A stretch of 64,000 bases of DNA from Gemmata palustris. GTDB taxonomy: Bacteria; Planctomycetota; Planctomycetia; Gemmatales; Gemmataceae. Below the pieces are notes generated by a model that saw only the letters and a list, made by a program, of their open reading frames with translations, searched no databases and was not told where the DNA came from. Both the position numbers and the translations under genes were made by a program. The DNA lies in assembly GCF_017939745.1 (NCBI RefSeq), contig NZ_JAGKQQ010000001.1, positions 2,108,001-2,172,000 of the forward strand, given 5' to 3'. Positions 16,032 through 59,716 of this stretch are shown piece by piece (positions within the stretch are counted from its first letter, which is position 1; the number at the start of each line of letters is the position of its first letter).

Positions 16032-16208
16032 CTCACGATCCTCCGGCAGCGTTGTTGCGTTATCCCTCTTGGCAGTTCCCGCGCCGAAGCTCACGGAATC
16101 GCCGAACCGCTGGAAATGACGAGACTTACGAAATTGGCTCTCTCAACCCCGCGTGGACGCGGGTTGCGAACCGCACGACGAGGATTGCAAACTGCAACCC
16201 GGTGACCC
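16032..16208. promoter_or_regulatory. Divergent regulatory region of the kdp operon and its regulators
   Basis: This 177 bp gap must hold the promoter of the leftward kdp operon and that of the rightward regulator genes. It contains inverted repeats that could bind a regulator: ACCCCGCG-TGGA-CGCGGGT-type at about 16146-16164, TTGCA-AAC-TGCAA at 16185-16197, and GGGTTGC (16161-16167) facing GCAACCC (16194-16200). I could not settle on a strong -24/-12 or -35/-10 pair on either strand. Confidence 0.5.
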
Positions 16209-17572
<1,364 letters not shown>

Positions 17573-17576
<4 letters not shown>

Positions 17577-21170: not shown

Positions 21171-22337
21171 ATGCCCACCCCCGCCACTGTGCTGCTGAGC
21201 TGCCCGCCGGGTCGGACCGATGGTGACGAACTCCGAAAACTGGTCGCGTCCGCGGGGTTCGTGGTCACCGACCACGCGCTCGGCTCCGCGCCGGCAGTGG
21301 ATTTTGATCCGATCGTGGTCGCGCTCGTCGACGCGGGGACGCGCGCGGATGTGGCCGCGGCCCAAACCCGGCGCTGGCGGGCGGAACTCGGCGACCAAAT
21401 CGTGCCGGTACTGTGGATCGCCCCGCCGGAACTGGGCGCGGCCGGGCTGGACTCGGGGGCCGATGTGGTGCTGGCGCCCCCCCTCGACCCGGGCACGTTC
21501 GTGGCGCAGCTCCGCGCGCTGGCCCGGACCAAATCGACCGCGGCGCGCGTCGCGGTCCGCGCCACGGAGGCGCGGCTCCTCGGCGACCAGTTGAAAAAGG
21601 CACTGGCCCAACTCGAGCGCGAGCAAGAAATGGCCCGCCGGGTTCGCGCCACGTTCCTGCCGCGTTCGTTCCCACAGATCGGCGGCGCGCGGTTCCACGT
21701 GTGCTACCGCCCCCGCGGGCGCTCGGGGGGCGACTTCTACAACGTGCAGCGCCTGGACGAGCACCACGTCGGGTTCCTCGTGGGCGACGTGGGCGGCACC
21801 GGCGCCGCGGCGGGCGGGTTGCTCGGCACGTTCGTCCTGCGGTCCGTCGTGATGAAAGAAATCACGGGCCAGAGTTACCGCATCGTGCCGCCGGACGAGG
21901 TGCTGGGCACCGTGAACCGGCTGCTGGTCGGGCTGAGTGCGGACGACCTCCCGCTCGTCGCGATGCTGGCGGGCGTGCTGAACGCCAAAACCGGCACCCT
22001 CACGGTGGCCCGTGCCGGGCTCCCGGTGCCGGTTTATGTCCCCGCGTCCGGCGGACCGGACGTGTGGGCCGTCCCGGGACCGTTCCTCGGCACCGCGGAC
22101 ACCACCTACCAGGCCCGGTCCGCGACCCTCAACCCGGGCGACCGGCTCCTGATCGGCACCGACGGGATGCGGCCCACCGGCGACCCCGGCCCCGGCGGAC
22201 CGGACCGCCTGCTGGAAGTGGTCTCCAAGCACAGCGCGGCGGCCGGCGCCGACTTCGTGGACACGGTCGCGCGCGAGTTGCTCCAGCACGTCCGCCACGC
22301 CGACGATTTCACGCTGCTCGGGATCGAGATGACGTGA
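21171..22337 (+). CDS. SpoIIE/RsbU-type PP2C phosphatase with degenerate receiver
   Basis: This 388-residue protein has a C-terminal SpoIIE-type serine phosphatase domain (about residues 165-388) with metal-binding motifs SGGDFYNV, VGDVGGTG, and LIGTDGM. A short coiled coil precedes it (LLGDQLKKALAQLEREQEMARRV, about 125-150). Residues 5-115 look like a receiver fold but lack the clear Asp-Asp pair and phospho-Asp. Such proteins usually dephosphorylate anti-sigma antagonists in partner-switching. No antagonist or anti-sigma kinase gene is adjacent. The ATG at 21171 begins right after a run of AAACACCAAA-type repeats, so upstream in-frame codons were rejected. Confidence 0.9.
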   Translation: MPTPATVLLSCPPGRTDGDELRKLVASAGFVVTDHALGSAPAVDFDPIVVALVDAGTRADVAAAQTRRWRAELGDQIVPVLWIAPPELGAAGLDSGADVVLAPPLDPGTFVAQLRALARTKSTAARVAVRATEARLLGDQLKKALAQLEREQEMARRVRATFLPRSFPQIGGARFHVCYRPRGRSGGDFYNVQRLDEHHVGFLVGDVGGTGAAAGGLLGTFVLRSVVMKEITGQSYRIVPPDEVLGTVNRLLVGLSADDLPLVAMLAGVLNAKTGTLTVARAGLPVPVYVPASGGPDVWAVPGPFLGTADTTYQARSATLNPGDRLLIGTDGMRPTGDPGPGGPDRLLEVVSKHSAAAGADFVDTVARELLQHVRHADDFTLLGIEMT

Positions 22338-22419
22338 GGCGAGCCCGACCACGTCAACACCCAATCGGACCTGGTACGAGGGGCTGGGCACTGAGAACGC
22401 TCCGTAACGGGAACGCGAA

Positions 22420-22451
22420 GCGGCCCGCTCCTTTTTAGTGGAACGGGCCGC
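22420..22451. terminator. Bidirectional terminator between convergent genes
   Basis: Arms GCGGCCCGCTCC (22420-22431) and GGAACGGGCCGC (22440-22451) pair with one wobble; the loop holds TTTTT. It sits between the phosphatase stop (22337) and the DUF2171 gene stop (22480). Confidence 0.8.
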
Positions 22452-22479
22452 GGGTCGCGTCGGAGTTGGTATTGGCGCT

Positions 22480-22887
22480 TTAAGCGCTACAGCTCGCGCA
22501 CGAGGCGGCATCGCTCTTCCAGCCGCTCTCGGTCTCGACCGAGTTCTTGGTCAGGTGAACGTGGTTCTCGTGAACGCGCCCCACCCACGCGGTCGGGATG
22601 AAATGGTGTTGGCCGTCCGAACTGTCGCTCTTGGTCAGCTTAATGCTGCTCCCCTCGAGGTGATCCACGACCCCGACTTTCTTGCCACACGAGGCGTACA
22701 CCTCCATGTGCTCCTTGATCCCCGACACGCCTTCGCTCGGGCCCTTGCTATCGCACCCGATTCCGGCCTTCTCTTTGACGTAGGCGGTGGCTTCCGAAAC
22801 CCCTTCCGCGATCTTGTGGCCGACGTTCTTGGCCGCATCAACGACCGCTTGGCCCGCGTCCGCGGCCTTATCTTTGAGGTTCGACAT
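22480..22887 (-). CDS. DUF2171 protein with amphipathic N-terminal helix
   Basis: This 135-residue protein has an N-terminal Ala/Lys-rich amphipathic helix (MSNLKDKAADAGQAVVDAAK..., about residues 1-45). A DUF2171-type domain follows (about 55-118: IKEHMEVYASCGKKVGVVDHLEGSSIKLTKSD...). The C-terminus has a Cys-rich tail (DAASCASCSA). The function is unknown; DUF2171 is a small PRC-barrel-like beta fold. The helix closely resembles the neighbouring protein at 23026-23214, suggesting a shared origin or a stress role. The start is the ATG that opens the helix; a longer reading frame upstream lacks support. Confidence 0.85.
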   Translation of the reverse strand: MSNLKDKAADAGQAVVDAAKNVGHKIAEGVSEATAYVKEKAGIGCDSKGPSEGVSGIKEHMEVYASCGKKVGVVDHLEGSSIKLTKSDSSDGQHHFIPTAWVGRVHENHVHLTKNSVETESGWKSDAASCASCSA

Positions 22888-22980
22888 AGTTGTGCTCCTG
22901 TGAGAGGTGTAACGAGTGTTGCGGCAGCCCTCTGCCACATCTCGGTTGAGAAACTGCAAACGACGAGCCGAAAATCAAAA

Positions 22981-23005
22981 GACCCGCCCCAATTAAGGGC
23001 GGGTC
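22981..23005 (-). terminator. Rho-independent terminator
   Basis: On the minus strand the stem GACCCGCCC/GGGCGGGTC is followed by TTTTGATTTT. It is 20 bp after the stop of the 23026-23214 gene, in exactly the expected place. Confidence 0.9.
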
Positions 23006-23025
23006 CAGTCGAGCCGACGCGGAGG

Positions 23026-23214
23026 TCACGCGCCGCTCTTGTCCTTCAACTTCTCCCCGGCGTCCTTCGCCGCCTGGCCCACCGATTTGGCCGCGTTCGC
23101 GGTCTTTTCGGCAACGGTTTCGGCCCCTTCCTTCGCCTTCTCCCCCGCCTTCTTCGCGGCGTCTTTCACGGCTTCGCCCGCGTTTTCGATCTTCTCGCGA
23201 ATGGTATCCGCCAT
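23026..23214 (-). CDS. Small Ala/Lys-rich helical protein (LEA/CsbD-like)
   Basis: This 62-residue protein is one long amphipathic helix built from imperfect 11-residue units (IENAGEAVKDAAKKAGEKAK, then EGAETVAEKTANAAKSVG, then QAAKDAGEKLKDK). Such sequences resemble group-3 LEA or CsbD-like stress proteins that protect membranes or proteins in desiccation or osmotic stress. The gene has its own terminator and, upstream on the same strand, a well matched sigma-54 promoter at 23284-23301. It probably belongs with the DUF2171 gene functionally. The family call is by composition and repeats. Confidence 0.85.
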   Translation of the reverse strand: MADTIREKIENAGEAVKDAAKKAGEKAKEGAETVAEKTANAAKSVGQAAKDAGEKLKDKSGA

Positions 23215-23283
23215 GACAGGTGCTCTCCTCGGAGTTGATGGATCTCACCGGAGTTATCGGTCCGGCCACCGCACCCCTAGCCG

Positions 23284-23301
23284 ATGCACACGAAGTGCCA
23301 A
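23284..23301 (-). promoter_or_regulatory. Sigma-54 promoter for the 23026-23214 gene
   Basis: On the minus strand the sequence is TTGGCACTTCGTGTGCAT, with GG and GC separated by exactly 10 bases. It matches TGGCAC of the -24 box fully and GC of the -12 box, with one mismatch next to each. The -12 GC is about 72 bp upstream of the ATG. Confidence 0.78.
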
Positions 23302-23312
23302 TCGCGCGCGTC

Positions 23313-23328
23313 CGGCGCGCCGATTGCA
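23313..23328 (+). promoter_or_regulatory. Candidate sigma-54 promoter for the 23384 receiver gene
   Basis: The sequence CGGCGCG-CCGA-TTGCA has the exact 10-base GG-to-GC spacing. It has a perfect -12 box (TTGCA) and five of seven -24 positions. It is divergent from, and 11 bp apart from, the minus-strand promoter at 23284-23301. Confidence 0.6.
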
Positions 23329-23383
23329 TTATCTATTTCCCGTTTGATACCTTCCTACTCACACACTTCAACCGGCCTTCCCA

Positions 23384-23842
23384 ATGTTCACCGAACCATT
23401 TCCTCTATCCGCGATCCGCGGGTCCGCACCGTTCCCGCTCCGGCTCCGGCTCCGCGTACTGGTCGTCGATGACAACCGGGACGCGGCCGACTCGACGGCC
23501 GAACTGCTCGCGATCTGTGGGGCCGATGTGACCGCCCGGTACGACGGGGAAACGGGACTCGCGGCGGTCGTGGAGTGGAAGCCCGACGCCGTGATCCTCG
23601 ATCTCACGATGCCCGGAATGGACGGGTACGCGGTGGCGCGTCGAATCCGCACCGTCAGCGCTGCGACGCAATCGATCGGACCACTTCTGGTGGCGCTGAC
23701 GGCTCTGGGCGACGAGCAAACGAAAGAACGAGCCGCGGGGTGCGGGTTCAACTTGCACTTTACCAAACCGGTCGATCCGGCCGAGCTGCTCCACGTTCTG
23801 GGCGAGCACGTGGCTCTCGCTGGGAACGGCCCCGCGCACTGA
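23384..23842 (+). CDS. Single-domain response regulator (receiver only)
   Basis: This 152-residue protein is one receiver domain (about residues 22-142) with a 20-residue leader. Motifs present are VVDDNRDAAD (acidic pair), LDLTMPGMDG (phospho-Asp), VALTAL (conserved Thr) and FTKPVDP (conserved Lys). There is no output domain, so it must act as a phosphorelay intermediate or by protein contact. The exact start is uncertain, because no clear ribosome-binding site precedes the ATG at 23384. The 24005 gene encodes a paralogue. No kinase is adjacent. Confidence 0.92.
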   Translation: MFTEPFPLSAIRGSAPFPLRLRLRVLVVDDNRDAADSTAELLAICGADVTARYDGETGLAAVVEWKPDAVILDLTMPGMDGYAVARRIRTVSAATQSIGPLLVALTALGDEQTKERAAGCGFNLHFTKPVDPAELLHVLGEHVALAGNGPAH

Positions 23843-23904
23843 GCGCCCGCACCAATGCTCCGGCGGCGCGTCCCAGTACGTGCGGGCCGGGGCCGGGATT
23901 TTCC

Positions 23905-23920
23905 TGGCACGATGATTGCT
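23905..23920 (+). promoter_or_regulatory. Near-perfect sigma-54 promoter for the 24005 receiver gene
   Basis: The sequence TGGCACG-ATGA-TTGCT matches the -24/-12 consensus at every conserved position, with GG (23906-23907) and GC (23918-23919) 10 bases apart. Transcription would start near 23931, giving a leader of about 75 bases before the GTG at 24005. Confidence 0.88.
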
Positions 23921-24004
23921 AATTTTGGCCCGGGGATGTCCCTGTCCCCGCACGTTTTTCGCCCGCGGAGCCCGTGAACCGGGCACACCCAAGAGAGCCG
24001 TATC

Positions 24005-24460
24005 GTGAGTTCCGGTGACACCGGGCAGCACGCCCCCGAAGGGGTGCCGCCCCTTCGCGTGCTGTACATTGACGACAACCGAGATCTGGCCGATTCCGCG
24101 GTCGATCTCTTGCGCCTCGTCGGGTTCGATGCACGGGCGTGCTATGAGGGCGAAACAGCACTCGCGGAGGCAAGAGAGTTCCTACCGGCCCTTTATCTGA
24201 TCGATCTAAACATGCCGGGGATGAATGGAGACGAATTGGCCGTGCGGCTCCGCGAGCAAACGGGCGGCAAATTGGTACTGATCGCGATTACCGCGATGAG
24301 CGATGAATCGAGTCGCGCGCGAATCAAGGCGGCGGGTTTCGACCTGCACCTCGTTAAGCCCGTCGATCCGCACAAACTGCTATCGGTCGTGGACGTACTC
24401 TGGCAAACGTGGAAATCGGATCACGAGCCCGCTTCGCAGGGAAACAAATTGCGAACGTAG
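24005..24460 (+). CDS. Single-domain response regulator (receiver only)
   Basis: This 151-residue protein is a lone receiver domain (about residues 18-138). It shows YIDDNRDLAD, LIDLNMPGMNG with the phospho-Asp, AITAMSDE, and LVKPVDP. The GTG start at 24005 has no strong ribosome-binding site but fits the family N-terminus. It shares architecture and several stretches with the 23384 protein, so the two look like tandem paralogues. The sigma-54 promoter 85 bp upstream indicates control by an activator of the NtrC class; the one at 16209 is the only such gene in this window. Confidence 0.93.
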   Translation: MSSGDTGQHAPEGVPPLRVLYIDDNRDLADSAVDLLRLVGFDARACYEGETALAEAREFLPALYLIDLNMPGMNGDELAVRLREQTGGKLVLIAITAMSDESSRARIKAAGFDLHLVKPVDPHKLLSVVDVLWQTWKSDHEPASQGNKLRT

Positions 24461-24567
24461 TCGCCTCACGGTTCTACACGTCCGATCGCCTCCTCGCTGC
24501 ATATCACGGATCTTCCCGATCCCACGTTTCGGCCAATCCACTCAGACGACCTCGCGTGGAATCCCGA

Positions 24568-24583
24568 CGGCCCGCTATGTGCA
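24568..24583 (+). promoter_or_regulatory. Weak candidate sigma-54 promoter before the zinc-ribbon pair
   Basis: The sequence CGGCCCG-CTAT-GTGCA keeps the 10-base GG-to-GC spacing and matches five of seven -24 and four of five -12 positions. It lies 130 bp before the ATG at 24714. On its own it could be chance in GC-rich DNA; it is listed because of the clear promoters nearby. Confidence 0.35.
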
Positions 24584-24713
24584 TATTGGCATTGGATCTC
24601 CGTCACGGACCGTTTGTGGTCCACCGGAAACACCCACAAAAGCCGCGCACTCGGGCCGGATTCCACGCCGAATCGCACGCCGTTGAGTGAGTCACGTTCC
24701 GTTCAAAGGGTCG

Positions 24714-24983
24714 ATGATGTCTTCGGACGCTCCCCGCCTCTTGCTATTCCGATGCGAGCACTGCCGGCGCACCTTTGCGTCCTCCCCGAACGAGGTCCGC
24801 ATGAGCACGCGGTACAACCGGTGGCCCGCGTGCTGCAGACGGGACATGGTCCTTTACCTCGAGGCCGAGCGCCCGGAACCGAACGCGACGCAGGTAACCG
24901 CGCCGGTTCTGCTGCTCACAGACGACCAACCCACTGGCACCACCATCCTGAGCTTCCCAAAAGATCGAACGCGCACCGGGTAA
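24714..24983 (+). CDS. Small zinc-ribbon protein, first of tandem pair
   Basis: This 89-residue protein carries a treble of Cys motifs: LFRCEHCRRTF near residue 12 and PACCRRDM about 30 residues on, which together could bind one zinc ion. The C-terminal half (LEAERPEPNATQVTAPVLLL...) is Pro-rich and probably flexible. I do not recognise a named family. The next protein shares its plan and many residues. The stop TAA overlaps the next start (TAATG at 24981-24985), so translation is likely coupled. The ATG at 24714 is preceded by AAAGGG. Confidence 0.75.
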   Translation: MMSSDAPRLLLFRCEHCRRTFASSPNEVRMSTRYNRWPACCRRDMVLYLEAERPEPNATQVTAPVLLLTDDQPTGTTILSFPKDRTRTG

Positions 24984-25303
24984 TGGCGCCGACGATCAAA
25001 CGTCCCGGCGAAACGCACATGACGTCGAGTCACCCCGAACCCGATCGCGCGCGCGTCTCGCTGTTTCGGTGCGCCCATTGTGGTCGCGCGCTCCCTGCGA
25101 CGCCGGCTGAAGTGCGCAGCGTCGTGCGCGGAAGTTGGCCGCGGTGCTGCGCTCGGGACATGGCGCTTTTCATTCCGGCCGAGCGCCCCGCGCCCGATGC
25201 GGCCCGCGTGACGGCACCACCACTCACTTTGCCGAGCGCCGACCCGACGGCCGAAACCACCACGATGCCCGCGCTGCCGAACCCCATCAAACCCATCGAA
25301 TAG
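24983..25303 (+). CDS. Small zinc-ribbon protein, second of tandem pair
   Basis: This 106-residue protein repeats the plan of its neighbour: LFRCAHCGRALPATPAEVR, then WPRCCARDMALFIPAERPAPDAARVTAP, giving the same CxxC and CC pattern. The ATG at 24983 overlaps the previous stop; an internal ATG at 25019 is a possible alternative giving 94 residues. The Pro/Thr-rich tail ends NPIKPIE. The pair probably arose by tandem duplication and diverged. The role is unknown; a small regulator or RNA or protein adaptor is conceivable. Confidence 0.75.
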   Translation: MAPTIKRPGETHMTSSHPEPDRARVSLFRCAHCGRALPATPAEVRSVVRGSWPRCCARDMALFIPAERPAPDAARVTAPPLTLPSADPTAETTTMPALPNPIKPIE

Positions 25304-58840: not shown

Positions 58841-59716
58841 ATGGACCATTTCACAATCGCGGCGGTACAGATGAAAATCGCGCCGGATCGCGAAACGAAC
58901 CTGGCGAAAGCCGAGGCCGCGATCGCCGAGGCCGCGAAACAGGGCGCGCAAGTGGTGTGCCTGCCGGAACTGTTCACCGGTTACTACTTCTGCCAGAAGG
59001 AAGACATCGCGCTCTTCGATCTGGCGGAACCGATCCCGGGGCCGAGCGAGGACCGGCTCGGTGCGGCGGCGAAGAAAAATAAGGTCGTGGTGGTCGGGTC
59101 GCTGTTCGAGAAGCGGATGCCGGGTGTGTACCACAACACCGCCACCGTCCACGACGCGAGCGGGAACCTGCTCGGGTTGTACCGGAAGATGCACATCCCG
59201 GACGACCCGCTGTTCCTCGAAAAGTTCTACTTCACGCCGGGCGACCTCGGGTTCAAAGTGTTCCCCACCGCGGCGGCCAAAGTCGGCACGCTGGTGTGCT
59301 GGGACCAGTGGTACCCCGAAGCGGCCCGACTCACGGCCCTCCAGGGCGCGGAAGTGATCTTTTATCCCACCGCGATCGGCTGGCACCCGCGCGAAAAGGA
59401 AGAGTTCGGCGAAGCGCAGCATTCCGCATGGGAAACGAGCATGCGCGGCCACGCGATCGCCAACGGTACCTACGTGTGCGCGGTGAACCGCGTGGGGCAC
59501 GAGGTCATCGTCGGCGAGGGGCTGGAGTTCTGGGGCGGGTCGTTCGTGAGCGACCCGTTCGGCCGCGTTCTGAAGAAGGGCAGCACGGACAAGGAAGAAA
59601 TTCTGGTCGTGAAGTGCGACCGGAAGCTCATGGAAGACGTGCGCCGGAACTGGCCGTTCTTCCGCGACCGGCGCATTGATGCCTACGGGAGCATTACCAA
59701 GCGCGTCGCCGATTGA
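58841..59716 (+). CDS. Nitrilase-superfamily amidohydrolase, N-carbamoylputrescine amidase-like
   Basis: This 291-residue enzyme has the Glu-Lys-Cys triad: CLPELF (about Glu 42), [10 protein letters not shown] (about Lys 121) and [12 protein letters not shown] (Cys about 158). The length and motifs such as FYFTPGD and [10 protein letters not shown] match N-carbamoylputrescine amidase (AguB type), which makes putrescine. The ATG at 58841 ([13 protein letters not shown]) is preferred over one five codons upstream. No agmatine deiminase gene is nearby, so the pathway assignment stays tentative. The next gene starts 43 bp after its stop. Confidence 0.9.

Follow-up and report, generated by a model that had tools for sequence, protein, structure and literature searches.

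Genes at the locus

The window, that is the whole 64,000-nucleotide stretch analysed here (G000:C1:2108001-2172000), lies within the 9.2-Mb, three-contig genome of Gemmata palustris. Its minus strand carries kdpA, a gene for a P-type ATPase (kdpB by position) and kdpC. Along the window these are followed by genes for an NtrC-type activator, a HAMP-PAS histidine kinase, a KdpD-N and Usp protein and a SpoIIE phosphatase, and then by those for a DUF2171 protein, a LEA-like protein and two receivers termed REC1 and REC2.

The LEA-like gene (23026..23214, minus strand) encodes an amphipathic-repeat protein of 62 amino acids without a Pfam match above a family cut-off. No LEA model of Pfam matched this protein, and below the cut-off only CsmC, apolipoprotein, YtxH, ApoLp-III and Senescence appeared; the term LEA-like refers solely to composition. 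The gene is common mainly to Gemmataceae. The DUF2171 protein (22480..22887, minus strand; 135 amino acids; PF09939, 1.9e-26) has a LEA-like N-terminus, and the pair of LEA-like and DUF2171 genes is also present in genomes G002, G008 and G016. Between the two genes a terminator-like hairpin, GACCCGCCC..GGGCGGGTC, with T-rich DNA after it, was read directly from the sequence (22981..23005, minus strand). REC1 (23384..23842, plus strand; PF00072, 1.3e-19) and REC2 (24005..24460, plus strand; PF00072, 1.5e-18) are single-domain response regulators in which the acidic pair, the phosphorylatable Asp and the Lys are all kept, as read from the translations. The gene content of the original prediction, in which σ54-type sites precede a gene for a LEA-like protein and two receiver-only genes, was borne out.

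Promoter sites of the σ54 type in the window

The presence of three σ54-type −24/−12 sites was confirmed. That of REC2, TGGCACGATGATTGCT (23905..23920, plus strand; predicted start ~23931), was found by pattern and by matrix; it has no mismatch to TGGCACN5TTGCW and is the sole such match in the window, in line with the earlier statement that it fits the consensus at every conserved position. The REC1 site, CGGCGCGCCGATTGCA (23313..23328, plus strand; predicted start ~23339), has two mismatches and lacks the A of GGCAC. The LEA-like gene is preceded by TGGCACTTCGTGTGCA (minus strand; predicted start ~23274) with one mismatch and TGTGC as −12 box; this site had been placed at 23284-23301, and its measured coordinates are 23285..23300. 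It is divergent from the REC1 site as predicted, with a gap of 12 bp instead of 11 bp. Spacing of the GG-N10-GC type (GG at −24, GC at −12, 10 bp between) is exact at all three sites. A fourth, weaker σ54-like site, CGGCTCGTCGTTTGCA (22955..22970, minus strand; rank 6 on the core matrix), lies upstream of the DUF2171 gene and has a counterpart in G016 (CGGCTCGTGGTTTGCA, L189). The genome encodes RpoN domains (L119) as well as an activator with a Sigma54_activat domain and GAFTGA.

For ranking, 18 promoters that precede LEA-family copies elsewhere were combined into a matrix, with the window and its ortholog in Gemmata sp. IIL30 (G010) excluded. On the full matrix the sites at 23905 and 23313 ranked 1 and 2 among ~128,000 window positions; Markov-1 random DNA would yield 0.1 scores of this height per window. 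The LEA site at 23285 ranked 73 because its spacer and its TGTGC box are unusual, and 88.65 scores like it are expected by chance. When the −24 and −12 columns only were used and the spacer ignored, the three sites ranked 1, 3 and 4 of ~128,000 positions. The low rank of the LEA site on the full matrix is a real weakness, offset by conservation in G010. A further promoter is possible at AGGCACACCACTTGCG (58947-58962, minus strand), placed third and second in the window by the two matrices. It lies inside an over-long ORF, and a 692-aa ORF begins ~98 nt after it.

Counting of consensus matches was discarded as evidence, being uninformative in both window and genome. The window has 19 matches with up to two mismatches vs 21.9 expected. 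Genome-wide, the core GGCACN5TTGC occurs 104 times (51 + 53) vs 126 for the reversed control pattern, and TGGCACN5TTGCW nine times vs 11 in the control. As such counts showed no excess, conservation was tested instead, and it is location and conservation that raise the sites above chance.

Conservation of the sites in relatives

Both the LEA site (TGGCACTTCATGTGCA) and the REC1 site (CGGCGCGCCGGTTGCC) are conserved in G010, which keeps the divergent LEA-REC1 stretch including the 12-bp gap; REC2 was not seen at the corresponding place in this genome. The preservation of −24/−12 boxes in related Gemmataceae, which the original prediction had named as a check, was hence observed. The LEA gene of the G010 assembly is interrupted by a linker (L165:5131-5165 and ~6496) which we take to be loxP-like; it looks like an artefact of a paired-end library linker. 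In G002 the REC1 ortholog (68%) is located apart from the LEA gene, and a strong site, CGGCACGGGGATTGCT, starts 187 bp upstream of it.

A search of 59 genomes gave matches to the LEA family in 12 (own genome included), mostly at different places. All 14 scored loci, the window's own among them and most of them at unrelated places, have a site that ends 43-95 bp before the gene start (18 loci were fetched; L018, L019, L021 and L022 were not scored). In a set of named genomes, which overlaps the former and from which a partial G010 match (L174) was set aside, a site precedes 11 of 12 LEA copies of Gemmataceae or unclassified origin, the exception being a Limnoglobus copy (L170), and none of seven LEA look-alikes of other phyla. 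For DUF2171 genes, a site of at least 15 bits was found in ten of the 18 scored loci, the other eight falling below 15 bits (20 matches in all; L197 and L198 left out). Among REC2-like genes, seven of the 11 scored loci (own included; the best matches of those fetched) have a site of at least 10 bits and four fall below, as compared with 5.4% of random 300-bp stretches that carry one.

A conserved hairpin in the predicted leader of LEA genes

In the stretch that separates the −12 box from the LEA-like gene, an inverted repeat, GCCGGA-CCGATAAC-TCCGGT (23247..23266, minus strand; match of model R1 at 23242-23273), would form a hairpin with the loop YYRATAAN in the predicted 5' leader of the mRNA. 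In a first alignment of ten examples, three of the six stem pairs were changed on both sides. In a second alignment of 24 matches (22 distinct), which was fitted to the model with the same number of columns and in which related sequences were counted, five of six pairs were changed on both sides; none of 500 shuffles reached this value. Sliding of the pairing partner abolished the covariation signal.

A model of the hairpin alone, containing no promoter letters, was then used to search 19 genomes of the genus and, with stricter filters, 95 genomes of the family (including the 19). Among the matches scored, whose number was capped per genome, 22 had an E value of up to 0.003, and in 21 of these a σ54 site ends 6-16 nt before the start of the model (12-16 nt in 18 cases, 11 nt in the window itself); the stem begins ~7 nt past the model start. 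Twenty of the 22 precede a LEA-like or LEA-DUF2171 ORF. Twelve do not duplicate a training sequence, even if some have an ortholog in the training set, and 11 of these 12 have a site; one hit (L340) has neither site nor ORF. In G081, site and hairpin precede a gene of the Rdx family (L335:1430-1560, minus strand). Weaker hits in the genus (E ~0.01 and more) lacked a site within 80 bp in 14 of 15 cases, including L276 and L290. The fifteenth (L292:2-31, plus strand; G003) begins at a contig end that cuts off the promoter region; the gene after it is 41% identical to the L335 product and has an Rdx match just below the cut-off.

The loop is missing in several LEA copies (e.g., L169, L170, L015 and L016), and 53 leaders of the regulon did not exceed 36 control stretches of coding DNA in structure (p 0.72), so that the hairpin belongs to part of the LEA gene family and a few other genes and not to σ54 transcripts as such. 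A general role in the latter was rejected, with mean z values of −0.33 for the 53 promoters, −0.35 for the 36 false sites in coding DNA and −0.32 for their own upstream DNA. Several other DUF2171 leaders carry unrelated hairpins. A search of positions 22300-25000 of the window with Rfam gave two matches, both below the gathering score and neither on the hairpin.

Genome-wide set of sites

In the own genome, 44 of 101 GGCACN5TTGC sites are intergenic vs four of 43 sites of the reversed pattern (Fisher p 3.8e-5), where intergenic positions were called by a crude GC-frame gene prediction, so that some of these sites may not be intergenic. The 101 sites, C2:443174 included, were those examined of the 104 core sites; the control took 40 regions from those of the 126 reversed-pattern places that were listed and, together with the window, gave 43 sites. 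The noncoding fraction was 0.114 in the σ54 set and 0.098 in the control. Two reversed-pattern sites occur inside the DNA of the σ54 set (window included), and neither is intergenic. Some sites called coding (L004, L113 and L132) are probably promoters.

Genes located after the sites, intergenic or not, encode three receivers (counting REC2) and products matching Pfam families DabA, KaiC, transglycosylase-associated, SulP, circularly permuted ATP-grasp, EF-hand, polyketide cyclase, PP2C, CHASE3-GAF, AI-2E, DUF2171, HlyD, squalene-cyclase-like, Cpn10 (GroES), a Cpn60-family protein, ferritin-like Dps, Rieske-DAO, DUF1559 and RpoN domains. Several such genes have no Pfam family, and some are not obviously stress genes (DUF1559, transporters). 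Three similar tiny proteins are each encoded after a σ54 site (L108:1286-1456, L107:1577-1714 and L092:1584-1730) and share the motif YRLADDGCP (CRLADDGCP in L107). A site, GGCACGGGGATTGC, is situated 258 bp upstream of rpoN within the end of the preceding ORF (L119:1501-1514; C1:3247593), and autoregulation of rpoN through it is possible. In a crude test for an upstream activator motif, palindromic 4-mer dyads in 53 upstream regions as compared with 48 others were no stronger than with shuffled labels.

Orthologs and paralogs of groES differ in their upstream regions. Within the genus, 14 of the 15 orthologs scored carry RGGCACN5TTGCW with its start 58-72 bp ahead of the gene, the site being missing in that of G011, whereas none of 12 scored paralogs has it. 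The own groES locus is L132 (site near C1:5076773) and the compared set is L235-L251; two of 17 ortholog loci (L243 and L248, near contig ends) and one of 13 fetched paralog loci (L252) were left out of scoring.

The NtrC-type activator and the kdp operon

The NtrC-type activator of the window (16209..17576, plus strand) consists of REC, a σ54 interaction domain with GAFTGA (read from the translation) and a Fis HTH, and its gene is divergent from kdp. A candidate σ54 site of the kdp operon, CGGCGCGGGAACTGCC (16071..16086, minus strand), recurs unchanged in G008 and G010. Of 20 activator loci, 12 have a gene for KdpA in their upstream stretch; of these 12, nine (G000, G008, G010, G009, G002, G016, G026, G027 and G039) have a GG-N10-GC site on the kdp strand 122-290 bp before the activator, with scores from 4.8 to 16.9 bits (19 loci scored; L032 left out). 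The assignment to kdp is suggestive only, because the own site scores just 5.9 bits while another divergent stretch there reaches 8.0. The activator sits beside kdp and probably serves it. Control of kdp by σ54 instead of KdpDE would be unusual, and a search of the open-licence literature found no paper linking the two.

Discussion

To our knowledge, little is known about the control of stress responses in Planctomycetes. RNA polymerase containing σ54 forms a closed complex at −24/−12 boxes until an NtrC-type activator opens it. We consider it likely that the sites described here are σ54 promoters of a dispersed regulon of stress and signalling genes in Gemmata-type Planctomycetota. The polymerase would be held closed at these boxes, and an NtrC-type activator responding to a stress or nutrient signal would open the complex. 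This would yield the LEA-like and DUF2171 proteins as protectants from the minus strand and the two single-domain receivers from the plus strand, and the back-to-back boxes with their 12-bp gap may couple the output of LEA and REC1. If so, a concrete, testable σ54 regulon with defined targets across the genus would be at hand, in which one chaperonin copy is set apart from its paralogs by its type of promoter.

That the matches arose by chance in GC-rich DNA and that the genes use other promoters would agree with raw pattern counts equal to or below those of the control and with the imperfect boxes at 23313 (no A in GGCAC) and 23285 (TGTGC). Such an origin is very improbable in view of the enrichment between genes, the conservation across unrelated locations, the contrast between groES orthologs and paralogs, and the recovery of sites at near-constant distance by a model that knows the hairpin only. 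A different question is which activator acts at the sites. The original prediction had tied them to a small regulon under the local NtrC-type protein, by which the activator at 16209-17576 and its kinase, 4-8 kb away, would drive LEA, REC1 and REC2. Proximity within the window and the intact GAFTGA speak for this assignment, but it was not supported: the sites are part of a genome-wide set, the activator is divergent from kdp, and GG-N10-GC sites lie between it and kdpA in relatives. Moreover, in G008 its ortholog (98%) and the LEA genes are hundreds of kb apart, and in G010 the ortholog (96%) is on another contig than LEA, while G013 (95% complete) has LEA with site and hairpin and, among the matches listed, only activators of 43-45% identity, which is paralog level. 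The genome also encodes many activators, at least 28 in G000 (all 28 scored, of 176 candidates, passed). We thus regard a local regulon as improbable, if somewhat less so than chance matches, and favour the dispersed σ54 regulon.

The message of the LEA-like gene would start with the short conserved-loop hairpin, which also stands before Rdx-like genes in two relatives; most likely it would act post-transcriptionally as a stabilising or protein-binding 5' element. The same inverted repeat may instead be an operator in the DNA, bound by a repressor or an activator, since a palindrome close downstream of a promoter at near-constant distance occupies the usual place of a repressor site. A dimer operator is expected to keep the letters of its half-sites, yet here they co-vary and stay complementary (5/6 pairs), and an asymmetric loop is conserved, which makes an operator rather unlikely, though less remote than chance matches or a local regulon. 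We prefer an RNA hairpin, which makes this a candidate leader RNA and opens the way to a search for its binding partner. On a wider and distinctly tentative reading, to which we give a little more weight than to the operator while doubting it on balance, σ54 of Gemmataceae would run the general stress response in the role of σS or σB, with LEA-like and DUF2171 proteins, Dps, one GroES copy, single-domain receivers and rpoN as members. A portable promoter-plus-leader cassette, made up of a σ54 site and, ~14 nt later, a hairpin segment with the YYRATAAN loop, would add post-transcriptional control by an undescribed RNA-binding factor. It would have spread along with the LEA genes and, in two relatives, also have reached redox genes of the Rdx-like kind.

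Control of stress genes by σ54 in Planctomycetia is not new in principle, because σ54 promoters before chaperones, UspA and NtrC-type regulators have already been predicted. Those parts of Carrera-Reyna et al. 2025 (PMC12316311) that are considered here report predicted σ54 promoters enriched in Planctomycetia before GroEL/GroES and other chaperones, UspA, MscS, NtrC/ZraR-type regulators and, less so, COG2165, and name Planctomycetia among the classes with CheY-like receivers and histidine kinases. That regulon rests on COG-level statistics, and in the same parts of the paper no LEA-like or DUF2171 genes, divergent LEA-receiver pair or leader hairpin were found. In a stress study of R. baltica (PMC2754498), again in the parts considered, rpoN was not regulated on heat shock and was down-regulated by salt, and a proposed σ54 promoter at the thioredoxin gene of the common stress set is referred to. 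The present analysis adds the LEA and DUF2171 members, the divergent LEA-receiver unit, the split between groES orthologs and paralogs and the leader hairpin, which were not found in the open-licence literature searched; the five papers found there on DUF2171 all concern Acinetobacter, judging by their titles.

Two known systems bear a likeness to these elements. One groESL copy of Bradyrhizobium japonicum is reportedly under NifA/σ54 control as part of the nitrogen-fixation regulon. Like groES of Gemmata, it is one of several chaperonin paralogs and has a σ54 promoter (a predicted one in the case of Gemmata). The ompA mRNA of E. coli has a stabilising hairpin at its 5' terminus, and the LEA leader shares with it a short stem near the 5' end (a predicted end in the case of LEA). 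Unlike ompA, the LEA leader has a conserved loop sequence and lies at a near-constant distance after a σ54 site.
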